A stretch of DNA of 64,000 nucleotides from Methyloglobulus sp. GTDB taxonomy: Bacteria > Pseudomonadota > Gammaproteobacteria > Methylococcales > Methylomonadaceae. The stretch is taken from NCBI GenBank assembly GCA_013141505.1, contig JABFQX010000039.1, positions 1 through 64,000 on the forward strand, in the 5' to 3' direction. The notes under the pieces are model-generated. The model did not search any database. It was given only the letters and a program-made list of their open reading frames with translations, and was not told the DNA's origin. Shown here in pieces: positions 14,141 through 37,222 of the stretch (position 1 is its first letter; each line of letters begins with the position of its first letter). The position numbers were made by a program, and so were the translations under genes.

Positions 14141-14219
14141 GCCTTCTAACCAATTATATCAATCATGCTTGTTCAGTGATTTGTTAGAAATTTGCGAACT
14201 TAAATACACGCCTAAAAAA

Positions 14220-14250
14220 AATCCCGGTACTTGTTACAAGTACCGGGATT
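14220..14250 (-). terminator. Intrinsic terminator reading leftwards
   Basis: A perfect 14-bp stem (AATCCCGGTACTTG, 14220-14233; its complement 14237-14250) with a 3-nt loop. On the minus strand it is followed by a run of T (A-run 14214-14220 on the plus strand), the layout of a rho-independent terminator. No convincing minus-strand gene lies directly upstream, so what it ends is unclear. It may also slow rightward transcription from hypX. Confidence 0.6.
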
Positions 14251-14278
14251 GACAGATCAAACATATCAGGAGGATTAA

Positions 14279-14314
14279 ATGTTTGTAGAGGTATGCCGTC
14301 GCATGAAGAGCTAA
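14279..14314 (+). CDS. Possible 11-codon leader peptide
   Basis: A very short frame (MFVEVCRRMKS) begins 6 nt after a perfect AGGAGG ribosome-binding site. It ends in TAA immediately before the ATG of a second small frame. The strong start signal is what draws attention; the sequence gives no clue to function. It could be a leader peptide that couples translation of the next frame. Confidence 0.3.
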   Translation: MFVEVCRRMKS

Positions 14315-14470
14315 ATGAGTTGCCTAAACTACAGGCTAAACCAGCAACTCGTGACAAAACAAAATCATGGTGAAACAAAGCGAAATAAAAATTGTGTCTG
14401 TACACCAAAACACACGTTTCTAAGGCTTCATCCCAACACGCTTGGTTTAAGAGGTTTAGTTTTAAGTTAA
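14315..14470 (+). CDS. Possible small protein of 51 residues, coupled to the leader frame
   Basis: The frame starts at an ATG joined to the preceding stop (TAAATG) and runs to TAA. The product is basic, with Cys-Val-Cys near its centre (KNCVCTPKHTF), and I recognise no family. A second AGGAGG occurs just after its stop without a good ATG following. Translation by coupling is plausible, but coding potential is not proven and it could be chance. Confidence 0.25.
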   Translation: MSCLNYRLNQQLVTKQNHGETKRNKNCVCTPKHTFLRLHPNTLGLRGLVLS

Positions 14471-14672
14471 TGCTTAGGAGGTAAAAACAAAAAATAATCA
14501 ACTTGGTGCATAGTATATACATGCCTATATTAGTTAACAATATAGTAAATAATTAACTAATTGTTTCCTTATGATAAACATATATCTCCAAAATAGATCC
14601 TGACAGAAATTTTACGCCGCACTCAAAACTGTAACGGTCAACAAAAACCGAACACTTTCTCCGGTAGCCTTC

Positions 14673-25266: not shown

Positions 25267-27837
25267 GTGCCAGATACCAACAATTCTACCAATGATATTG
25301 GTGCACAATATTACGCAACCCGGCTCGGCATCTACGATGAGATGTACGCGACTGAAAATAAAGCGTTACCGCACTGGGAACGCTTTATGGGTGCGCTTGA
25401 CGCAATGGGCAGTGAAAAACTTGAGCTGCGTCGCCGGGAAGCGCAACGCTTATTGCGTGAAAATGGTGTTACCTACAATGTCTATGGAGATTCGCAAAAA
25501 CTTACCCGGCCTTGGCGGCTAGACCCTGTCCCATTATTAATCAGCAGCGAAGAATGGCTGATCATTGAAGCCGGGCTTAAGCAACGCGCTGAGCTGCTTA
25601 ACTTGATCCTTAAAGACATTTACGGCAAACAAAGCCTATTGAAAAAAGGTTTGTTGCCTAGTGAACTGATATTTGGCCATGAAGGTTTTTTGCATCCCTG
25701 CGTCGGTGCATTACCTTACCAGAAGCAACATCTGACTATTTATTCGACCAATCTTGCCAGAGGCCCTAACGGACATATGTGGGTATTGGATGATCGTACC
25801 CAAGCGCCTTCCGGTTCAGGGTATGCTTTGGAAAATCGAACAGTGATGACGAGGGTACTGCCTGATATTTTTCGTGAAACACAAGTGCATCGGCTGTCCG
25901 GTTTTTTTAAGGCAATGCGGAAGGGACTCGCTAATATTGCACCCCATAATAAAGAAGATCCTCGCATCGTCGTACTAACGCCCGGACCACTCAATGAAAC
26001 CTATTTTGAACATGCTTATTTAGCTGCTTATCTTGGCTTTACTCTAGTCCAAGGCGGCGATCTGACGGTAAGGGATGGACGAGTGTGGCTTAAATCATTG
26101 GAAGGCCTGCAAGCTGTTGATGTTATTTTGCGCCGCGTTGACGATTCATTCTGCGATCCACTGGAACTGCTAAGCGCTTCACAGTTAGGTGTGACAGGTC
26201 TATTGGAAGTCGTTCGACGCGGTAACATTGCAATTGCCAATCCATTAGGCAGCAGCATTTTAGAAAACCCCGGCTTATTGGCTTTCTTGCCGAGGTTAGC
26301 CCGTTACTTTTTAAATGAGGAGCTTAAGCTGTCTTCGGTTGCTACCTGGTGGTGCGGACAGCGCCGCGAGTGTGATTTCGTCTTACAAAATCTTGATAGA
26401 TTGGTCATTAAACGTATTAATCGTAGCCTGGGGGATCATGCCGTATTTGCCGGTGCCTTAAGCAGTAAAGACAAAGACAACCTTCGCAATCAAATCATCG
26501 CTAAACCGCATTGTTTCATAGGCCAGGAACAGGTCAGCTTTTCCACTCTACCGGCGTTTATCAATCAGCACATAGAACCACGTAACGCCGTTTTACGCAA
26601 CTTTGTGGTTGCAAGTGGGGATGAATATGTCGTGATGCCAGGGGGACTTACCCGTGTTGCCCGTGAAAAAGATAATTTTATCGTTTCCAATCAGGCCGGT
26701 GGCATTAGCAAAGACACCTGGGTATTAGCATCAGAACCTGATAAGCCAGTCAGTTTATGGACTCAACCAAAACGTAATCAACTGATTGATGCAATCACCG
26801 AACCGTTGACAAGCCGCGCTGCAGACAATCTATTTTGGGTTGGCCGACATCTTGAACGTGTGGAAGCTATCTCACGACTTCTACGCACAGTATTACTAAA
26901 ACTAAGTGAAACGCGTGAATTCAAAGATCCTATTGACAATCAGTGTCTTTCGGTATTTTTGCGCACATTGACCCAGGTTAGCGGCACTTATCCGGGCTTT
27001 GTAAAAGGCGATGGGCAACTTCTGAAAACACCACAGAAAGAGCTGCTCTCGCTGGCAAAAGACACTCATCGCAAAGGCTCACTGACGGCGAATATAGAGG
27101 CTTTTGTGCAAGCAGCGTTCAGCATTCGAGATTTATGGTCGCAAGATACCTGGCGCAGTGTTGATAATATTCAACGCCGATGGCAACTACGGGTCATCAA
27201 TAACGAAATCAATGTCGAACAGTTACAGACCCATCTGGATGATTTAATTATCGGCATTGTTGCATTTACCGGGTTAACCAGCGAGAGCATGACACGTGAA
27301 GCCGCCTGGTTGATGCTGGACAGTGGGCGACGGCTGGAACGAGCGATGGGTCTCATTGCTTTGCTCCGGTCAACTTTGGCGATAAGGCATGATGATGCTC
27401 TACAAAGCCAGGTTCTTGAAGCGGTCTTGGTTTCAACTGACAGTTTAACGATTTATCAGCGCCGCTACCGTTCTTTTATCCAGTTGCCGATGGTGCTGGA
27501 ATTACTGTTACTGGACGAATCCCATCCCCGCTCGCTGGCTTACCAGTTATATCAGTTATCCGCCCATATAAGTGCCTTGCCGAGGACAAAAAGCCAAAGT
27601 CATCTCAGTGAAGAAGAGCGTTTAATTTTAAAAGCTTACACTGACTTACGCCTGTGCAACGTGCTTGAATTAACCCAGATTAATGACAATGAAGGTATTT
27701 ACACTGATTTTGACCGCGTGCTATCGAGTATGGCTGACTTGTTACTGCGACTTGCAGACGTTATTGCCGATGCCTATTTCAGCCACTCTCAGACTTCGCA
27801 GCTGATGATACTCAATACTCCGGAGGACGAACTGTGA
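25267..27837 (+). CDS. Circularly permuted ATP-grasp fused to an alpha-E domain
   Basis: An 856-residue fusion. Residues about 25-490 are a circularly permuted ATP-grasp (COG2308, DUF404/DUF407), with RPWRLDPVPLLI, HEGFLHPCVG, YALENRTVMTRVLPDIF, LTPGPLNETYFEHAYLA and the VMPGGLTRVA end. Residues about 515-850 are an alpha-E (DUF403) helical domain opening with RAADNLFWVGRHLERVEAI. ATP-grasp enzymes form amide or peptide bonds through acyl-phosphates; alpha-E has no known activity. The start is GTG. The stop overlaps the next GTG start (GTGA), so the transglutaminase downstream is translationally coupled. A second, split copy of both modules is at 34794-37177. Confidence 0.9.
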   Translation: MPDTNNSTNDIGAQYYATRLGIYDEMYATENKALPHWERFMGALDAMGSEKLELRRREAQRLLRENGVTYNVYGDSQKLTRPWRLDPVPLLISSEEWLIIEAGLKQRAELLNLILKDIYGKQSLLKKGLLPSELIFGHEGFLHPCVGALPYQKQHLTIYSTNLARGPNGHMWVLDDRTQAPSGSGYALENRTVMTRVLPDIFRETQVHRLSGFFKAMRKGLANIAPHNKEDPRIVVLTPGPLNETYFEHAYLAAYLGFTLVQGGDLTVRDGRVWLKSLEGLQAVDVILRRVDDSFCDPLELLSASQLGVTGLLEVVRRGNIAIANPLGSSILENPGLLAFLPRLARYFLNEELKLSSVATWWCGQRRECDFVLQNLDRLVIKRINRSLGDHAVFAGALSSKDKDNLRNQIIAKPHCFIGQEQVSFSTLPAFINQHIEPRNAVLRNFVVASGDEYVVMPGGLTRVAREKDNFIVSNQAGGISKDTWVLASEPDKPVSLWTQPKRNQLIDAITEPLTSRAADNLFWVGRHLERVEAISRLLRTVLLKLSETREFKDPIDNQCLSVFLRTLTQVSGTYPGFVKGDGQLLKTPQKELLSLAKDTHRKGSLTANIEAFVQAAFSIRDLWSQDTWRSVDNIQRRWQLRVINNEINVEQLQTHLDDLIIGIVAFTGLTSESMTREAAWLMLDSGRRLERAMGLIALLRSTLAIRHDDALQSQVLEAVLVSTDSLTIYQRRYRSFIQLPMVLELLLLDESHPRSLAYQLYQLSAHISALPRTKSQSHLSEEERLILKAYTDLRLCNVLELTQINDNEGIYTDFDRVLSSMADLLLRLADVIADAYFSHSQTSQLMILNTPEDEL

Positions 27838-28775
27838 AATACCGCATTACTCACACCACACTCTATTCTTACAGTCAGTCGGTAGGGTTATGCCAGAATG
27901 AGGCCAGATTACAACCACGCAATTTTTGGCGGCAACACTGTGACAACAGTCGCTTTGATATTAATCCAGCGCCATCCGATTTCCACGAGCGGATTGATTT
28001 TTTCGGCAATCGCGTTGCATATTTTGCTATCCAGCAACCTCACACTCAATTGATCGTTACCGCAATCAGTGAAGTGACGGTATTCCCCAAACAAAACACA
28101 CTGGATTTGTTTAATCAAATGTCCTGGGAACAAGTACGCGGCCTGTTACAAGAACACCCACAGCCAGGACAAGGACAATCACAAAGCCAGCAAAGCCAAA
28201 GCCAATTTCAAAACCAGGATCAGGCTCTTGAAATAGTGGATGCCCGGCAATACGTACTTGACTCACCCATGGTGACCATTACAAAGGAACTCGCTGATTA
28301 TGCCCAAAGTTCATTCTTGCCTAATCGCTCGCTGGTGGATCTCGTGCATGACTTAATGCAGCGTATTTACAAGGATTTCACCTATGACCCGACATTCACG
28401 ACTATTGCTACGCCTTTATCCGAAGTCCTTCGCTTTCGTCGGGGCGTTTGTCAGGATTTTGCACACTTGGCTATTGGTTGTTTGCGTGCCTATGGTATGG
28501 CCGCTCGCTACATCAGCGGTTATGTTGAAACATTGCCTGAACCCGGCAAACAACGCCTGGTTGGGGCTGATGCCTCACATGCCTGGTTTTCAGTTTATAT
28601 CCCCGGTACCGGCTGGCTGGACTTTGACCCGACCAATAATACCGTACCACTTGACCAACATATCACGCTAGCGTGGGGGCGAGATTACTCCGATGTCACG
28701 CCGCTTAAAGGCATTGCTTTCGGCGGTGGTCAGCATACGCTGTCGGTGTCGGTGGATGTATTGAGACTGGAATAA
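27834..28775 (+). CDS. Transglutaminase-like protein with a Gln/Ser-rich insert
   Basis: A 313-residue cytoplasmic protein with the N-terminal beta domain (YRITHTTLYSYSQSV) and the transglutaminase triad C206 (GVCQDFAHLAIG), H249 (DASHAWFSV) and D264 (DFDPTNNT). Residues about 111-130 are a Gln/Ser-rich low-complexity stretch between the two domains. It starts at GTG inside the stop of the ATP-grasp fusion, after an excellent CGGAGGA site. Members of this family act as peptidases or amidases as often as true transglutaminases; the substrate is unknown. Confidence 0.9.
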   Translation: MKYRITHTTLYSYSQSVGLCQNEARLQPRNFWRQHCDNSRFDINPAPSDFHERIDFFGNRVAYFAIQQPHTQLIVTAISEVTVFPKQNTLDLFNQMSWEQVRGLLQEHPQPGQGQSQSQQSQSQFQNQDQALEIVDARQYVLDSPMVTITKELADYAQSSFLPNRSLVDLVHDLMQRIYKDFTYDPTFTTIATPLSEVLRFRRGVCQDFAHLAIGCLRAYGMAARYISGYVETLPEPGKQRLVGADASHAWFSVYIPGTGWLDFDPTNNTVPLDQHITLAWGRDYSDVTPLKGIAFGGGQHTLSVSVDVLRLE

Positions 28776-28854
28776 AAGTGCACGGCTAAAGGTGAATAAA
28801 GGCACAAATCTTTCACTTTTCGCTTTAAACAATTTTTAACTTAATGGAGTTTAT

Positions 28855-29550
28855 ATGTCTACTATTCATCTGATTGGGGGCGAAAAAGGCGGTGTGGGCA
28901 AATCGGTTGTAGCACGTTTACTGGCGCAGTATATGATCGACCATGAATTACCTTTTATCGGTTTCGATACGGACAGATCACATGGTTCGCTACTGCGTTT
29001 TTATAGCGACTATGCCTCACCTACGGTTATCGACAATTACCAAAGCCTGGATACCATTATAGAAACTGCTTCAGCACAGCCAGAGCAACGCATTTTGGTT
29101 GATCTTGCGGCACAAACCCATCATCCATTGGCACGGTGGATTGAGGAGTCGGGCGTACTCGAATTGGCAGAAGAGCTGGGGATTTCCATCTGTTATTGGA
29201 ATGTCATGGATTCGGGAAAAGATTGTGTGGATTTGCTGGGCAAATTGCTCGACCAATTCGGATCCCGACTTAATTATATTTTGGTACAGAACCAGATTCG
29301 TGATGAACATTTTAATATCCTGGAATTTTCGGGCGTGAAAAATCGGGCGTTGGATTTGAATGCAAAGATCATTACGCTAAAACGTCTTCATGCGCCGGTA
29401 ATGACCAAAATAGACGGTAACAGCTACAGTTTTTGGGCTGCAAAAAACAAAGATGTCGAAAATCTCAATGCCTTGGGCTTACTTGAAAGGCAACGAGTAA
29501 AAATTTGGCTAAATCATGCATATAAAGAAATAGATACACTGAATGTTTGA
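28855..29550 (+). CDS. ParA/MinD-type P-loop ATPase
   Basis: A 231-residue deviant Walker A ATPase. The motif GGEKGGVGKS occupies residues 8-17, and the FDTDRSHGS and LVDLAAQT segments correspond to switch/Walker B regions. It does not look like plasmid ParA or septum-site MinD along its length, and no partner ParB or MinE-like gene is adjacent. It sits between two transglutaminase genes on the same strand, with a good GGAG ribosome-binding site. It may power or position something in this system, but that is inference. Confidence 0.75.
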   Translation: MSTIHLIGGEKGGVGKSVVARLLAQYMIDHELPFIGFDTDRSHGSLLRFYSDYASPTVIDNYQSLDTIIETASAQPEQRILVDLAAQTHHPLARWIEESGVLELAEELGISICYWNVMDSGKDCVDLLGKLLDQFGSRLNYILVQNQIRDEHFNILEFSGVKNRALDLNAKIITLKRLHAPVMTKIDGNSYSFWAAKNKDVENLNALGLLERQRVKIWLNHAYKEIDTLNV

Positions 29551-29681
29551 AATACGTTGTTGTGAGAATATAAGCTATAAATCGGCCCAAGCTAACGCTA
29601 ACCTTGATCTCTAGCTTACGAATCACGACCAGCATGCCTTTTTTTGGCAATTATGGGTTTCTTTAAACAAGGTCTATCCAC

Positions 29682-30485
29682 ATGAAATTGAACGTAAGTT
29701 GTAATCTACATTTTCAGGTAATTGAAGAGACCGCTTTAATTTTTATGCTGCGCCCTTTCAGGGGTGTTCAGCAATGGATAAACCGCGAGGTTTATACGAT
29801 TGATTCTGCTATGCCGATCATTGAAAGTACCGACAGCTTTGGAAATTCGTGCCAGCACCTGCTTGCACCTGTCGGAAATTTTTCGATTCAAACCTCGGCT
29901 GAGGTCATAGTTAGCGATGGCGTTGATGTTGCACCGGGGGCATATTTTGTTGAAATACAGCATCTTCCTAACGAAGTGCTGCCCTTTCTGCTGCCCAGCC
30001 GTTATTGTGAATCTGACCGATTTGGCGTTATTGCCCAAGAAATAACCTTGGAAGCGCTACCCGGCTACGATCAAGTCAGCATGATTACTGATTGGGTTCG
30101 CAATTCTATACAATATTTACCGGGTTCCAGTGAATTCCCACTCTCCGCTGTTGAGGTGCATAACCGTGGTAATGGTGTGTGCCGGGATCTTGCTCAGCTT
30201 GCCATAGCGCTCTGCCGCAGCATCAGTATACCTGCACGGCTGGTTGTTGGTTACCTGCATAATCTGCAACCTATGGATTTACACGCCTGGTTTGAGGCCT
30301 ACGTTGGCGGTCGATGGTATACATTTGACCCCACACAAAGTGACTTACATGGCGGCAGGGTCATTATTGCTTTTGGGCGCGATGCAGCGGATGTCTCTAT
30401 ATTTCATCAGTTCGGTTCAGGTTGTCTATTGAACAACATGGACGTTCGGGTTGATTTACTGGATAATTCAGCCTTCTTAAGATGA
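29682..30485 (+). CDS. Transglutaminase-like protein (third copy)
   Basis: A 267-residue protein with the transglutaminase triad C167 (NGVCRDLAQLAIALC), H201 (MDLHAWFEA) and D216 (TFDPTQSD). It is the smallest of the three transglutaminase-like proteins in this cluster and diverges in the N-terminal beta domain. It lies 22 nt upstream of the Anbu gene, so these two are very probably co-transcribed. In other genomes a transglutaminase is a regular neighbour of Anbu. Confidence 0.88.
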   Translation: MKLNVSCNLHFQVIEETALIFMLRPFRGVQQWINREVYTIDSAMPIIESTDSFGNSCQHLLAPVGNFSIQTSAEVIVSDGVDVAPGAYFVEIQHLPNEVLPFLLPSRYCESDRFGVIAQEITLEALPGYDQVSMITDWVRNSIQYLPGSSEFPLSAVEVHNRGNGVCRDLAQLAIALCRSISIPARLVVGYLHNLQPMDLHAWFEAYVGGRWYTFDPTQSDLHGGRVIIAFGRDAADVSIFHQFGSGCLLNNMDVRVDLLDNSAFLR

Positions 30486-30507
30486 TTACAACAACGGCTA
30501 AACGTTC

Positions 30508-31263
30508 ATGACATATTGTATTGCTGCTTCTATAAACGAAGGACTTATCCTGGTTTCTGATTCAAGAACCAATGCCGGTATCGATAATGTCAGTACGCAT
30601 GGCAAAATGCATGCGTTTTTGACGAAAGATGACCGTAAAATTGTATTGCTTTGTGCAGGGAATCTTGCCACAACTCAGGCGGTTTTGGAGCAATTGCATC
30701 GTGATAACATCAAAAATGCGCAAACTAACCTTAATAATGTGGAATGCTTATCTGAAGCCGCCGCCTACTTAGGTCATGTTAGTTTGGAAAAACAAAAACA
30801 ACATGTCAACTCTGAAGGCCAATCTGCCTTTAATCCCTCAGCAACTTTTATTTTAGCCGGACAGATTAATGGTGAACCACACGGTGCGTATATGATTTAC
30901 CCTGAAGGTAATAGCATTACCAGTTCCGCTAATACACCTTTTTTACAAATTGGTGAAAGTAAATACGGTAAACCCATACTCGACCGCTTCCTTAAATTGG
31001 GGACTTCAATTGACGAAGCGGCACGTTGTTGCTTGGTGTCAATGGACTCTACCATACGAAGTAATGCGAGTGTTGGAGCACCGGTTGATATGCTAATTTA
31101 CCGTAAAGACAGCTTCAGCTTTAATGAATATTACTGTTTTGATGATGATAATGACTATTTGCTGCAACTTAGGCGTAGTTGGGAAACGAAACTGCGTGAA
31201 GCAATTGCAGCTTTACCTAGCCTAGACAAACAGACCGTAAGGCCAATGCCGATTAGACTGTAA
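30508..31263 (+). CDS. Anbu, proteasome-type peptidase (COG3484)
   Basis: A 251-residue protein of the Anbu family, a bacterial relative of the proteasome beta subunit and HslV. After removal of Met1, the expected catalytic residues fall in register: Thr1 (from MTYCIAA), Asp17 (in LVSDSRTNAG) and Lys32 (in STHGKMHAF). Family structures form open helical or ring assemblies and lack an obvious unfoldase partner; their substrate is unknown. Here the gene closes a cluster of amide-forming and transglutaminase-type enzymes, which suggests it processes their product. Confidence 0.92.
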   Translation: MTYCIAASINEGLILVSDSRTNAGIDNVSTHGKMHAFLTKDDRKIVLLCAGNLATTQAVLEQLHRDNIKNAQTNLNNVECLSEAAAYLGHVSLEKQKQHVNSEGQSAFNPSATFILAGQINGEPHGAYMIYPEGNSITSSANTPFLQIGESKYGKPILDRFLKLGTSIDEAARCCLVSMDSTIRSNASVGAPVDMLIYRKDSFSFNEYYCFDDDNDYLLQLRRSWETKLREAIAALPSLDKQTVRPMPIRL

Positions 31264-31714
31264 GGCATTAACTTGAAATGCCACTCGAAGACGATTTTGT
31301 CATCTCGGCCTAGTATTAATAGTTTCATAAGTACTTGCGTTTTTCCTGCTTAAGGAAATGTTATTGCCCTGCCTTGCGAAGTTTAATGTACCTGTGGCAA
31401 CTCAAGAAACTACTGATGCTATAAATTCGCCGTTGCCAACTCAATGGCAATTTTGAATTAGATTAACGCCCTTCACTGCAATAAAATATTTCTAAACTGA
31501 TTACCCACCCTGATAGCTTTCAAAAACCAGATAGACGATATTTGGTGGTCTGCCGCAACTAACCCCTAACTTGAAAATAGGCACAAAACGCCTGCATTTG
31601 GTTGTGAAATTTCATTTATGACAATTATCTAGTGCTAACAATAAACCCTCAAGATCTTGCTAACCTTCAGTCTTAGCAATTCTCATAATTTAACCTTCAC
31701 CGCTGAATTCCTGA

Positions 31715-31731
31715 GGTACCCAATTGGTGCA
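31715..31731 (+). promoter_or_regulatory. NtrC-like enhancer half site
   Basis: The sequence GGTACCCAATTGGTGCA has a perfect TTGGTGCA right half and a degenerate left half of the NtrC consensus (GCACC-N-GGTGC type). It lies about 150 bp upstream of the sigma-54 promoter, a normal distance for an enhancer. A second dyad (GGTGCAAA/TTTGCAC) overlaps it at its right end. Activation by NtrC is inferred. Confidence 0.35.
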
Positions 31732-31881
31732 AAAGTTAACGTGTTTGCACATTTGTTAAGCATATAAGTCAATTATCCTTAATAATTAGTTGATGAAGCG
31801 AATATCAATTAAATTATTTACACCCAATAAGCAATTGTAATTAATAGTAAATATAACAATTACCTGAATAGGTTAATAGAA

Positions 31882-31899
31882 TGGCATAACTTATGCTTT
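31882..31899 (+). promoter_or_regulatory. Sigma-54 promoter
   Basis: TGGCATAACTTATGCTTT has the invariant GG and GC of RpoN promoters exactly 10 nt apart (31883-31884 and 31895-31896). Transcription would start near 31908, about 60 nt before the small membrane protein gene. The box is almost identical to the one before nrtA on the other strand (57789-57807), which makes a chance match unlikely. The rest of the 700 bp between the Anbu gene and this promoter holds nothing I can recognise. Confidence 0.65.
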
Positions 31900-31966
31900 A
31901 TCTAAATTATGCGTCTGTTTGTTCGATGCTAATTAATTTGTTTACTGCCATTCTTGGAGTGTAACC

Positions 31967-32110
31967 ATGAGTACCGTATATAAAGATATTTTGATTGGAT
32001 TGTTGTTCATCACTGGGATATGGGGCTTTGTTTCCGGCGAGTTCATAGCTTCAACCGTATTATTTGCAGGTGCCGCTATCTACAGCAATATGGTAAAGCG
32101 TATCAACTAA
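31967..32110 (+). CDS. Small membrane protein of 47 residues
   Basis: A single hydrophobic protein with a short charged N-terminus (MSTVYKD), two close hydrophobic stretches (ILIGLLFITGIWGFVSG, then IASTVLFAGAAIY) and a basic end (NMVKRIN). A GGAG site lies 10 nt upstream of the ATG. It is the first gene behind the sigma-54 promoter and is followed by a terminator before glnN. Homologues are unknown to me. Its position suggests a nitrogen-regulated membrane peptide. Confidence 0.6.
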   Translation: MSTVYKDILIGLLFITGIWGFVSGEFIASTVLFAGAAIYSNMVKRIN

Positions 32111-32182
32111 ACTTTCCATCTATCCTCTAGTTGTGTTGTTCTTTCAAGCAGAACCCTCCTCATGTTTTTGCTTGGTTTGTTC

Positions 32183-32215
32183 CCTCCCTTTGTAACAACA
32201 TTGGGAGGCTTTTTT
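32183..32215 (+). terminator. Intrinsic terminator between the small membrane gene and glnN
   Basis: CCTCCC (32183-32188) pairs with GGGAGG (32203-32208) and is followed by CTTTTTT. The stem is short but GC-rich and directly precedes a T-run, as expected for a terminator. It separates the small gene from glnN, so glnN is either reached by read-through or has its own promoter in the next 110 bp. Confidence 0.6.
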
Positions 32216-32323
32216 GCTCAGTAAATTTTGACTATTAACCTACCTCGTTTAAGCAGAATTTTCGTTGAGTTATTGCTACTTAAAAATTCATTGAATTATC
32301 AATATCCAATAAGGAAAGTTAAG

Positions 32324-34498
32324 ATGACTGGAAATACCGCACGTGCTCAGGCTGTTCAAGCTATCGTCAATCGTCAACTGATGCCTGCTAAAACACCAGA
32401 ATCGCTCAGTAGCTTATGGGCGAGCGATGTATTTACGTTAGCCAAAATGAAAGAAAGCCTACCTAAAGAAGTCTTTAAATCGGTGAAGAAAACCATTGAA
32501 GCGGGTGCTGAACTGGATGTATCGATTGCCGATGTGGTGGCATTGGCGATGAAAGATTGGGCGCTTTCCAAAGGGGCGCTGTATTACGCGCACGTCTTCT
32601 ACCCCTTAACCAATGCGACGGCGGAAAAACACGATAGCTTTATCTCCGTGCAAAGCGATGGTTCTGTCATCTCTGAGTTCAGCGGCAAAGTGCTGGTACA
32701 AGGTGAACCGGATGGCTCGTCTTTCCCTAATGGTGGCATACGCTCCACCTTTGAGGCGCGCGGTTATACCGCTTGGGACGTAACCAGCCCCGCTTACATC
32801 ATGACCACCGATAACGGTGCCACCCTATGCATTCCCACGGTTTTCGTATCTTGGACGGGCGAAGCGCTGGATAAGAAAACGCCATTATTACGCGCCAATG
32901 CCGCCATGAACAAAGCCGCCCATCGCGTCTTGTCCATTTTGGGGCATACTGATATTGCGCCGGTTAACTCCAGTTGCGGCGCCGAACAGGAATATTTTCT
33001 GGTCGATGCCAATTTTGTCAACAGCCGTCCGGATTTACTGTTGTCTGGGCGGACGTTGTTTGGCGCATCAGCCGCGAAAGGCCAACAATTTGATGACCAT
33101 TACTTTGGCGCAATCCCTGAGCGCGTCCAGGTTTATATGCAGGATGTTGAAGAGCAGTTATATCGTTTAGGTATCCCCGCCAAGACCCGACACAACGAAG
33201 TCGCACCAGGTCAGTTTGAGATAGCGCCGTTCTTTGAATCCGCCAACGTCGCCACTGACCACCAACAACTGTTAATGACGGTCTTGAAAAACACCGCCAA
33301 AAAACACGGTTTGGTTTGTTTGCTGCATGAAAAACCGTTCAAAGGCATTAACGGCTCCGGCAAGCATGTCAATTGGTCAGTCGGCAATTCTACGCAAGGT
33401 AACTTGCTGGATCCCGGTAATACCCCACATGCCAATACGCAATTCCTGTTATTCTGCGGCGCGGTTATCCGTGGTGTGCATAAGTATGGCCCGTTGCTGC
33501 GCGCCGCTATCGCTTCGGCAAGTAATGACCACCGTTTAGGCGCGAATGAAGCGCCACCAGCAATCATTTCGGTTTACTTAGGCTCACAGCTTGATAATGT
33601 GTTTGAGCAAATCAGTAAAGGCAAAATAACAGGATCCTTGGATGCGGGTGTGATGGATTTAGGCATCAATACCCTGCCCACCTTCAATAAAGACGCAGGT
33701 GACAGGAACCGTACCTCGCCTTTCGCTTTTACCGGCAACCGGTTTGAGTTCCGAGCGGTGGGCTCCGGGCAATCGGTGGCAGGGCCACTGGTGGTGATGA
33801 ACACCATGCTGGCCGATTCACTCAATTGGGTTGCGGATGCGCTGGCAAGCAAATTGGCGGCTGGCACTGACCTTGATTCCGCGATTCTTCTTACATTGAA
33901 GGAGTTGATCGACCAACACGGTGCAGTTGTATTCAGCGGCAACGGCTATTCTGCCGAATGGCACAAGATGGCGGTCGAGGAGCGTGGTTTAGCCAACCTT
34001 AAGACCGCCGCCGATGCAATACCGGTGCTAAAAGAGCCTTATGTTGAAAAGCTCTTCCACGAACTTGGCGTATTGTCACCTGTTGAGCTTGCCAGCCGTT
34101 TTGAAATCTATGCCGAGCAATACATTCTGGCAATTGAAGTGGAAGCCAAGCTGGTGGTCAGCATGGCAAAAATCGGCATTTATCCAGCCGCTGTCAAATA
34201 CCTGTCTGAGCTATCTTCAACGCTTAGCAGCCTAAAAAGTAACGGTATCGAGCTGGGAAATGAACCTTTGGCAGAGATTACAAAACTGCTGACAGCAATG
34301 ATGGCAACTGTCACTAAACTCAGTGCCGCTATCAGTCAACATGATTTTTCAACTATCGAAGAACATATGCAGTTCTGTGCAAAAACTATCCGTCCACTCA
34401 TGGATGAGGTTCGTCAATATGCCGATGCGCTTGAAGGCGAAATAGCCGATGAATTGTGGCCTTATCCAACCTACCAAGAAATGCTGTTCATCAAATAG
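32324..34498 (+). CDS. glnN: Type III glutamine synthetase (GlnN)
   Basis: A 724-residue GSIII enzyme, which makes glutamine from glutamate, ammonia and ATP. It has the long N-terminal GSIII extension, then the catalytic core with [29 protein letters not shown], the [19 protein letters not shown]/Glu site and [20 protein letters not shown]. The ATG at 32324 follows AAGGAAAG. A start at 32228 would add an unconserved N-terminus. This enzyme is usually an alternative to GSI (glnA) used in low nitrogen. It sits downstream of a sigma-54 promoter and ends the rightward half of the amidoligase region. Confidence 0.93.
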
Positions 34499-34793: not shown

Positions 34794-35726
34794 TTAATGA
34801 GCAGCCAAGAACCAAGTTGACGCTATCTGGTTATGAGTAACACCTAATCTGACTTGAATATCATCCAATAACTTATGCAATTGTACTGGGGTTATATGAT
34901 AGATATCGGTTGCCATTAAGGAAGATAACAGTGTTGCTAAATTATCGGTTAACACTTCTGACCGCGGAAGACGTTTTATGTAGGCTTCAACTTCATTAAT
35001 GCAATGCACAACCGAACGAGGAAAATCGGGATCTTTGAGCAAGTAATCCAGTACATCCCCACTCCTGATACGATGCCGTCCGTGTTTTCTGTACATGAGC
35101 AAGGCGCTTAAAGATTTCAGTACATTCATCCACATGGCATTTTCGTATTGGCGCGTTTTATCGCTACGGTCATCCGCCAAGATCACTGACGCAATATCGA
35201 GTATACGCGTGGTCATATCGGCTCGCTCAATACTCCGTCCTAAACGGATAAAGCGGAGCGCATCGTCGTGGCTCATGGCACCCGATAAGAAGCCAGTGAA
35301 ACATTGGCAACCCCGCATGATCTCGTTCAATATTAACACCCTGCCCCGGCGGTTGGCGGCAGTATCCACATTATTCTTGGCAAACAAGTACATTTCATTG
35401 ACCTGCTGCCAAGCCTCGTCGGGCATGAGCTCGCGGGATGTGCGTATATTCTCGCGGGCGGCATTCAAACAAGAAAACAACGAACCTGGATTGGCAGTGT
35501 CTGTTAACAGGAAGCTCATCGTATTTTGTTCGTTGGGAATCTCATAAAGTTTAAGGAATGCTTGTTCTGCGCCGAAAATAGTCAGCAAATTTCGCCAACT
35601 GACTTCCACGCCCATCGGCATATCAAACATGAGATTCATGTAAACACTCAGCAACCTTGCTGTATTTTCAGTCCGTTCCAGGTATCTGGCTAGCCAATAT
35701 AAGCGTTCCGCTGATCGAGATAACAT
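34794..35726 (-). CDS. Alpha-E domain protein (DUF403)
   Basis: A 310-residue all-helical protein of the alpha-E family (COG2307), recognised by its opening MLSRSAERLYWLARYLERTENTAR, a conserved GxAMSHDDALRFIRLGRSIERAD block and many Arg/Glu pairs. Its biochemical role is unknown; it almost always pairs with the circularly permuted ATP-grasp. The start ATG lies 2 nt after the ATP-grasp stop, with AGGGA upstream. It is a free-standing version of the module fused in the 25267-27837 protein. Confidence 0.9.
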   Translation of the reverse strand: MLSRSAERLYWLARYLERTENTARLLSVYMNLMFDMPMGVEVSWRNLLTIFGAEQAFLKLYEIPNEQNTMSFLLTDTANPGSLFSCLNAARENIRTSRELMPDEAWQQVNEMYLFAKNNVDTAANRRGRVLILNEIMRGCQCFTGFLSGAMSHDDALRFIRLGRSIERADMTTRILDIASVILADDRSDKTRQYENAMWMNVLKSLSALLMYRKHGRHRIRSGDVLDYLLKDPDFPRSVVHCINEVEAYIKRLPRSEVLTDNLATLLSSLMATDIYHITPVQLHKLLDDIQVRLGVTHNQIASTWFLAAH

Positions 35727-35728
35727 TT

Positions 35729-37177
35729 TTACGTCCCTGTATTGATGATCCAAGTATCTTTGCTGCCGCCGCCTTGTGAAGAATTGACGACCAAAGAGCC
35801 TTTTTTTAAGGCTACACGAGTCAAGCCGCCAGCAGTCACAAAGCTATTTTCGCCTTGCAAAATAAATGGGCGTAAGTCAATATGGCGTGGCTCCAAGTGA
35901 TTGTCACATAATGTTGGACACGTTGAAAGTGCCAACGTAGGTTGACCAATGTAATTACGTGGTTGGTCTTTTATAATTTTACGGAACTCTTCAATTTCTT
36001 TTTTAGTGGCATGTGGGCCTACCAGCATCCCATAACCACCCGACTCATTGGCTGGCTTTACCACCAGCTCATCCAGGTGCGCCAAGACATAGACTAGCTG
36101 TTCAGGATCACTGCACAAGTAAGTCGGGACATTGGGCAGGATAGGCTCCTCATTGAGATAATACCGGATCATTTCTGGTACATAGGTATAGACAACCTTA
36201 TCGTCGGCAACACCTGAACCGGGTGCGTTTGCCAAGGATACATTACCAGCCTTCCAAGCCCTTAAAAGACCTCTGACACCCAACATGGAATCTTTACGGA
36301 ACACCTCAGGGTCGAGAAATTGGTCATCGATCCTGCGATAAATGACATCGACTTTTTCCATGCCGTTGATAGTACGCATGTACACGCAATCATCGTCCTG
36401 CACCAACAAATCGGCACCTTCAACCAACTCTGCACCAATTTGTTGCGCTAAAAAGGCATGTTCAAAATAGGCCGAGTTGTAAATTCCCGGGGTCAGTACC
36501 GCGATGCGCGGGATATCACTATGCTCGGGCGCAATAGATACCAACATTTCTAACAAATGGGCCGAATAATCGTCAACAGGCAGTACATCCAGATCTTGAA
36601 GTAATTCTGGAAAAACCTTTTTGGTTATCACACGGTTTTCGATCATGTACGACACGCCGGATGGAACGCGCAAGTTATCTTCGAGTACGTATAAGGTACC
36701 ATCCTTGTCCCTGACTAAATCACTGCCACAAATATTCGCCCAAGTTCCAAATCTGGGCTGCATACCCACACATTCTTTGAGGAAATTGGTTGAACTACTA
36801 ATAATACTTGCCGGAATCAAACCCTCTTTAATAAACAATTGTTCGTTATATATATCATTGATAAAACAATTTAAGGCTTTAAGCCGTTGCTTTAACCCTT
36901 CTTCTACACGTAGCCATTCTCTGTATTCGATAATGCGAGGAATAATATCGAACGGCCATGCCCTATCGATATTGCCTTCGTCACTATAGACCGTAAAGGT
37001 TATGCCCATTTCCATGATCGCTAAATCAGCCGCCGTTTTTCTAACGTCCAATGCCTCACGGTCAAGCGTACCCAAATAACTACTTAAGCGGGAACTGGAA
37101 GGTCTCGCTTGGTTTTCAGAGCATCGCATTTCATCGTATGCCTCAGTGACCATGTAGTTGTCCCATAATGAAGCCAT
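35729..37177 (-). CDS. Circularly permuted ATP-grasp protein (COG2308)
   Basis: A 482-residue putative ATP-dependent carboxylate-amine ligase: MASLWDNYMVTEAYDEM at the start, RAWPFDIIPRII, VLEDNLRVPSGVSYMIENR, the LTPGIYNSAYFEHAFLA block, and VKPANESGGYGMLVGP, the nucleotide-binding loop. The C-terminus has a VTAGGLTRVAL segment like the fused copy. The ATG at 37177 follows a GAGGG site; upstream codons are not conserved. It is co-transcribed with the alpha-E gene and faces the glnN side of the cluster. Confidence 0.92.
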   Translation of the reverse strand: MASLWDNYMVTEAYDEMRCSENQARPSSSRLSSYLGTLDREALDVRKTAADLAIMEMGITFTVYSDEGNIDRAWPFDIIPRIIEYREWLRVEEGLKQRLKALNCFINDIYNEQLFIKEGLIPASIISSSTNFLKECVGMQPRFGTWANICGSDLVRDKDGTLYVLEDNLRVPSGVSYMIENRVITKKVFPELLQDLDVLPVDDYSAHLLEMLVSIAPEHSDIPRIAVLTPGIYNSAYFEHAFLAQQIGAELVEGADLLVQDDDCVYMRTINGMEKVDVIYRRIDDQFLDPEVFRKDSMLGVRGLLRAWKAGNVSLANAPGSGVADDKVVYTYVPEMIRYYLNEEPILPNVPTYLCSDPEQLVYVLAHLDELVVKPANESGGYGMLVGPHATKKEIEEFRKIIKDQPRNYIGQPTLALSTCPTLCDNHLEPRHIDLRPFILQGENSFVTAGGLTRVALKKGSLVVNSSQGGGSKDTWIINTGT

Positions 37178-37222
37178 CAAGCGTACCCTCTTTAAAATGC
37201 GAAAAAACAAGGTGACTTGCAT

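Follow-up and report, generated by a model that had tools for sequence, protein, structure and literature searches.

The window, a stretch of 64,000 nt from a Methyloglobulus genome (GCA_013141505.1, contig JABFQX010000039.1, positions 1 to 64,000), probably encodes a nitrogen-promoted message with two products upstream of glnN, namely a WatS-type membrane peptide from its 5′ part and a trans-acting small RNA from its 3′ part, with read-through into glnN. Sequence comparison supports both the coding gene and its promoter sequence, as well as the RNA element and the existence of peptide-less RNAs behind WatR-type promoter sequences. We are evenly divided on a wider proposal, according to which an undescribed family of WatR-controlled anti-Shine-Dalgarno RNAs exists in Methylomonadaceae, with the WatS genes as its protein-coding form, one branch re-promoted to NtrC/sigma-54 and taking over glnN, and 'WatS5' perhaps representing the non-coding form.

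A conserved gene for a small membrane peptide

The initial annotation had described a 47-residue gene with a good ribosome-binding site, and such a gene is present on the forward strand at 31967–32110, where the start codon ATG at 31967 is preceded at a distance of 7 nt by the Shine-Dalgarno sequence GGAG (31956–31959). Conservation in close relatives, on which the annotation had staked this gene, was found almost throughout the family: 36 of the 37 Methylomonadaceae genomes (own genome counted) contained relatives of the peptide, with one to six matches per positive genome. Among 24 genomes from other families of the order there was one marginal match (E 0.06, with an internal stop), and a class-wide draw of 274 genomes yielded the own genome and one genome of the same family only. 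The ratio dN/dS ranged from 0.04 to 0.71 and was thus below 1 in all 45 estimable pairs (55 pairs from 11 copies, the remaining 10 giving no estimate). Because of these relatives and ratios we regard the open reading frame as beyond chance; judged by sequence comparison, it is a conserved gene under purifying selection. A scan of genome contigs returned 304 relatives, and among the best 80 of these the nearest belonged to Methyloglobulus and to other Methylococcaceae/Methylobacter records, names from which we take the family to be Methylomonadaceae; relatives occur also in records named Methylomonas (L123, H2). Two further relatives are plasmid-borne, in Methylobacter sp. YRD-M1 (NZ_CP091426.1, 21796–21921) and Methylomonas sp. 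AM2-LC (CP157006.1, 234459–234575).

The alignment of the family comprises 61 distinct copies of 44–58 aa, with starts picked by script. AlphaFold2, supplied with this 61-row alignment, predicted a hairpin of two helices (residues 3–23 and 26–46) at a mean pLDDT of 90, and this model together with the purifying selection argues for a translated small membrane peptide, as had been claimed. Searches of Pfam and NCBIfam yielded no model covering the window peptide, and a PDB fold search gave nothing below E 4.8. In a Pfam search with the 61 peptides, 13 members matched DUF6949 (best E 0.0007, weaker names following), which we did not adopt because short hydrophobic segments give loose matches. 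A hydrophobic type I toxin was also considered and was dropped on the regulated promoters and the purifying selection.

Relation to WatS peptides and WatR

The passages on Methylomonas DH-1 in PMC10355033 describe a LysR-type regulator, WatR, which binds ATTGTT-N11-AACAA and controls the previously unannotated genes watS1–5. WatS1–4 are about 50 residues long, are homologous to one another and have a predicted membrane segment, and watS5 is the one smORF not homologous to them (PMC10355033). In the wider proposal made here, WatS5 may be a non-coding form mistaken for a gene. A western blot showed T7-tagged WatS1, the influence of this peptide on acetate tolerance requires the WatABO pump, and tuning of this RND efflux pump was proposed, direct pump binding not being shown in those passages (PMC10355033). 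This published proposal lends support to the earlier guess that the peptide could tune a transporter.

Many of the family copies listed here carry the sequence ATTGTTTCY-N5-RGAAACAAT, or part of it, followed by a TTGTAT / TATAGT promoter, and this WatR-type pattern of operator plus promoter fits 79 of the 126 peptide copies. By its sequence, the operator at most peptide copies is the published WatR motif. A watR-like gene was detected in 26 of the 28 family genomes searched, the own genome included (a LysR gene on G000:C49, 77% identical to the query), and in 11 of 18 others at 42–60% identity. At two loci (L038, L046) a LysR gene is followed by a protein read as a methyltransferase and by a further protein of 130–155 residues, an order that we take for the watR-smtM-rstM operon. 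Across the own genome, the operator pattern with one mismatch allowed gave 47 sites vs 46 in the control; this count is therefore uninformative, and only sites at known units were used.

The window peptide probably belongs to the WatS family, to whose DH-1 members WatS1–4 it was compared by description. This placement follows from its length, copy number and family restriction, and from its paralogs, which have WatR-type operators and are linked to watR. Ahead of the window copy itself there is no WatR operator. Because a sigma-54 promoter replaces the WatR-type one, we treat this copy as a paralog with another promoter and not as a WatR target.

Predicted nitrogen promoter of the peptide gene

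The predicted sigma-54 element TGGCATAACTTATGCT (31882–31897, forward strand) agrees with the consensus at 9 of 12 positions, with GG and GC intact. About 130–155 bp upstream of it, at 31725–31750 on the same strand, lie the NtrC-like half-sites TGGTGCAA (31725–31732) and TTGCAC (31745–31750), which form invariant columns in all six aligned loci; half-sites of this kind we take to be NtrC-binding. The window and five other loci (L086, L028, L024, L023, L126) align over ~280 bp and share TGGTGCAA, TTGCAC and the GG/GC sigma-54 element. The combination of a GG-N10-GC element with upstream NtrC-like sites, both as predicted sites, and its conservation at the five other loci support control of the peptide gene by nitrogen via sigma-54, in keeping with the initial annotation. 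This support extends to the window copy but not to most of the family, in which WatR-type promoters prevail by pattern: sigma-54 elements scoring at least 8 were found by pattern at 10 of the 126 copies, one of which (L022) was discounted since a WatR-type promoter is present there too.

A conserved RNA element at the 3′ end of the message

Behind the peptide gene lies a conserved RNA element of 99 nt (32118–32216, forward strand), a putative anti-Shine-Dalgarno small RNA, which as a training copy scores 76.3 bits to our model R1. Its parts are a CCUCC stretch left unpaired, a hairpin whose loop reads CUCCUCA, and a terminator. In the window, hairpin 1 (32145–32174) is formed by CAAGCA...TGCTTG and exposes CCCTCCTCAT in its loop (32154–32163), and the Rho-independent terminator CCTCCC...GGGAGG-C-TTTTTT (32183–32215), supported by folding and covariation, makes up the last part. 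The gene's own terminator, as annotated, is thus present and folds as stated, but the conserved structured RNA of which it is one part had been overlooked. The terminator is absent from a simple terminator scan because its loop exceeds the 3–8 nt allowed.

By pattern search, the element was found downstream of 80 of the 126 peptide copies; one of these (L035) was set on the wrong hairpin, and model R1 finds copies that the pattern missed. An alignment of 71 sequences, leaving out L035, L121 and near-duplicates, contains two helices with 15 pairs, 11 of which show changes on both sides: in helix 1, one pair changed in this way in 13 of the 71 sequences and another in 1, and in helix 2 (the terminator) all nine pairs did. 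Helix 1 is paired in 100% of cells. In total, 96.8% of cells are paired vs a shuffle mean of 87.6%, with 0 of 500 shuffles as high and 34.6–42.8% for slid versions of the structure, the structure having come from the same 71-sequence alignment. Conservation extends to unpaired positions, with six of the seven letters of the CUCCUCA loop at 90% or above and the CCUCCU stretch before hairpin 1 at 70% or above, both complementary to Shine-Dalgarno sequences. The peptide-linked copy of the window has a degenerate UCCUCU in place of the first CCUCC stretch; therefore the loop alone is intact there.

The exposed CCUCC-type motif, the structured RNA and the Rho-independent terminator occur together here, as expected by sequence for a trans-acting anti-Shine-Dalgarno sRNA. 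We read the element as such an RNA, combined with a peptide gene in some copies; it appears to represent a new family of small regulatory RNAs, other members of which occur where the peptide is missing. Rfam gave no match to 31200–32500 at E up to 1, and at 17 other loci no family reached the cut-off; the three sub-threshold NsiR1 matches at these loci, which fall within its 3′ half, and a single mir-460 match were taken as chance.

Peptide-less copies of the RNA

At E up to 0.01 (approximate values, from a short calibration), model R1 had 57 matches in 61 genomes, many of them training sequences. R1-positive genomes numbered 35 of 37 in Methylomonadaceae vs 0 of 24 in other families of the order, and 2 of 274 in the class-wide draw (the own genome plus another family member). 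A family peptide precedes the RNA on the same strand at 34 of the 57 matches and is missing at 23, which are independent of R1 because the model was trained exclusively on peptide loci. We read 21 of these 23 copies (G004:C21 and G006:C172 were left out), and none had an intact family peptide ahead of the RNA. A WatR-type operator plus promoter within 330 nt was found at 17 of the 21, vs 0 of 2776 control windows, so that these copies have a predicted promoter of their own, independent of a coding gene. The predicted transcripts of peptide-less copies measure 97–292 nt, and the distance from the −10 sequence to the element is 43 nt in L208 and 6 nt in L217. Among the four copies without an operator match, three are near-misses by eye and the fourth (L223) is probably a false match.

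One peptide-less copy lies in the window itself, on the reverse strand (14214–14316; 43.4 bits, E 1.4e-7), and took no part in model building. Within 1.5 kb, a tblastn search for the peptide family gave no hit at E up to 1. On the same strand, at 14512–14581, it has a WatR-type operator (14561–14581, one mismatch) and a promoter ending in TATACT (14517–14512). At another locus (L206), a profile search detected a 20-residue remnant of the peptide end, followed by a stop codon, before an intact RNA (E 0.022; best of 1260 shuffled frames, E 0.099), which suggests that in at least one case a unit has lost the reading frame but retained the RNA. The other peptide-less copies gave nothing better than the shuffles (L222, E 0.18).

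Units adjoining watR were compared in 14 genomes, where eight consist of peptide and RNA, five of RNA only (G009, G012, G017, G023, G024) and one of peptide only (G027); next to watR, the RNA is thus kept in 13 of the 14 genomes and the peptide in 9. Conversely, 51 of 85 peptide matches lack an element within 250 nt at the chosen cut-off, and behind the 57-residue type of peptide stands another, plain terminator, these copies scoring at most 27.8 bits to R1. That peptide and RNA come and go separately is the main argument for two functions; it is weakened by the 51 peptides without element and by the degenerate first motif of the window copy.

A second RNA layout, approximately UUCAURUACCUCCUCGUAGUGUGAAA plus terminator, was seen at L214, L215, L216, L220 and L063 with low R1 scores. 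Three of its four peptide-less copies have the WatR-type promoter pattern, and a sibling RNA family is possible.

Probable read-through into glnN

The gene following the element is glnN (32324–34498, forward strand; PF12437, PF18318, PF00120), encoding a type III glutamine synthetase, matches to which were present in 12 of the 61 genomes, one of them broken. Copies of the peptide upstream of glnN, which the initial annotation had suggested looking for, were found in all four Methyloglobulus genomes in which glnN was found (the genus has 8 genomes in the set) and at L086, in a record named Methylobacter sp. KS41, but not in seven other genera with intact glnN; the RNA element is likewise absent from these seven loci.

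The seven intact glnN genes without an upstream peptide have close variants of TGGTTCAATTATTGCT 57–66 bp ahead of the start, and the corresponding glnN promoter of the window, TCGTTGAGTTATTGCT (32262–32277, forward strand), is a decayed sigma-54 element. The proximal GG is lost in all four loci that possess the upstream sigma-54 site (window, L086, L028, L024) and kept in all eight that do not. At L031, on a 3.4-kb contig with differing upstream sequence, the peptide is present, its sigma-54 site is absent and the glnN element is kept. This reciprocal loss and retention suggests, from the four promoter sequences, that transcripts from the upstream promoter now reach glnN because the terminator leaks, although a further promoter for glnN is conceivable. 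A terminator does stand before glnN, as annotated, but with glnN's own promoter decayed it probably separates the two genes incompletely.

One glnN gene that appears broken by internal stops (G016:C98, L172) has kept a strong sigma-54 element, TGGCTCGATTATTGCT. The surroundings of the peptide locus (25267–31263 and 34794–37222) encode circularly permuted ATP-grasp/alpha-E and transglutaminase-like proteins and, at 30508–31263, a product with a weak match to a proteasome subunit (PF00227, below cut-off), while beyond glnN there is a second alpha-E + ATP-grasp pair; these flanking genes look like what we take to be an Anbu-type peptidase gene group.

Search for targets of the RNA

The exact pattern CACCAGGAGG-N4-9-ATG matched 20 times in the 61 genomes, vs 3 times with the reversed-pattern control. 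Seven of these matches fall on the element itself, in the opposite reading direction, and the rest lie at unrelated genes or short frames. The sole long perfect pairing involves an urtA-like start region in G031 (G031:C58, L273), where 15 nt, counted by eye, are perfectly complementary to the RNA element of the same genome. This pairing was not seen in other genomes in a rough comparison, in which a simple rule picked several starts inside the gene, and the one exact-pattern scan of the 61 genomes brought up no conserved target.

Proposed mechanism and alternatives

In the reading that we favour, nitrogen limitation would lead NtrC and sigma-54 to transcribe the peptide/RNA message. Its 5′ part would be translated into the 47-residue WatS-type helical hairpin, which may reside in the inner membrane and adjust a transporter, as proposed for WatS1. 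The 3′ part (32118–32216) would constitute a small RNA ending in its own terminator. This RNA would either remain the 3′ end of the message or be set free by processing, and its exposed CCUCC stretch and CUCCUCA loop could pair with the ribosome-binding sites of other mRNAs and lower their translation. Part of the polymerases would pass the terminator into glnN, such that glutamine synthetase would increase along with the peptide and the RNA. As the most likely history, an acid-stress unit controlled by WatR would have been copied and then re-promoted for nitrogen limitation.

A hairpin ahead of a terminator is a common mRNA-stabilising layout, and with 34 of the 57 matches located behind a family peptide, the peptide alone could matter, the 3′ element acting as terminator and protective hairpin for a short message without any regulation of mRNAs. 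We give this a minor chance, as the loop letters and the CCUCC stretch are conserved while stem pairs change on both sides, 23 of the 57 matches have no family peptide ahead and copies of the 57-aa type manage with a plain terminator. Even less probable is a cis attenuator of glnN, for which the loop sequence CCCTCC would compete with the terminator arm for GGGAGG: both sequences are able to pair with GGGAGG and glnN has lost its own sigma-54 promoter, but the next gene is convergent at many loci, the element is found at 0 of 7 glnN loci of other genera, and read-through suffices without a switch. The motif is complementary to Shine-Dalgarno sequences generally, including the GGAG of the peptide gene, so that the RNA might also act in cis on its own peptide through CCUCC; we rate this lowest, since the RNA is kept in copies that have no intact peptide reading frame and 51 of 85 peptide matches lack the element at the cut-off used.

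The comparative case for the two-product message names an RNA sequence, a likely promoter, a likely regulator and cultured hosts. If it is true, a single transcription unit exists as peptide only, RNA only or both, which would make its functions separable, and a stress-response unit was re-wired from weak-acid to nitrogen control and captured a glutamine synthetase gene.

Comparison with known systems

Among the literature matches listed, with most subscription journals outside the search, there was no native small RNA from gammaproteobacterial methanotrophs; the passages of PMC7720504 concern a synthetic sRNA only. NsiR1 (RF02399) scores 25–26.5 bits to three other copies of the element, at a gathering score of 39, and to none in the window stretch, a likeness most likely due to similar terminator hairpins. 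NfeR1/alpha-r14 of Sinorhizobium resembles the element in its anti-Shine-Dalgarno CCUCC motifs in unpaired regions and in having its transcription linked both to nitrogen (NtrC) and to a regulator of the LysR type, but it is alphaproteobacterial, has three hairpins each with CCUCCUCCC, is repressed by NtrC and, in the passages on it, is not said to embed a peptide (PMC10746234). The window element had no Rfam match at E up to 1 and the loop consensus is CUCCUCA, not CCUCCUCCC, which places it outside the alpha-r14/cuckoo family. In layout only, the message is similar to CcaF1-CcsR1-4 of Rhodobacter sphaeroides, where a small-protein gene is cotranscribed with small RNAs from one promoter up to an end terminator; there, the protein is a 71-aa DUF1127 RNA-binding protein and four RNAs stand in a row (PMC10253847).

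On the side of the peptide, the model proposed for WatS is AcrZ of Escherichia coli, a small protein of the membrane whose binding to an RND pump changes the specificity of the pump (PMC10355033); its likeness to the window peptide is one of description. In the main text of PMC10355033, a search for sRNA or 3′ UTR found neither term, and 'small RNA' occurs in reference titles only. The WatS1–4 peptides of DH-1 and the window peptide are alike in their length of about 50 aa, a predicted membrane segment, several copies per genome and in having been previously unannotated, although that paper predicts one membrane segment where AlphaFold2 gives two helices for the window peptide. What distinguishes the window copy from the WatS genes described there are its sigma-54 and NtrC-like sites, its position before glnN and the RNA element at its 3′ end.
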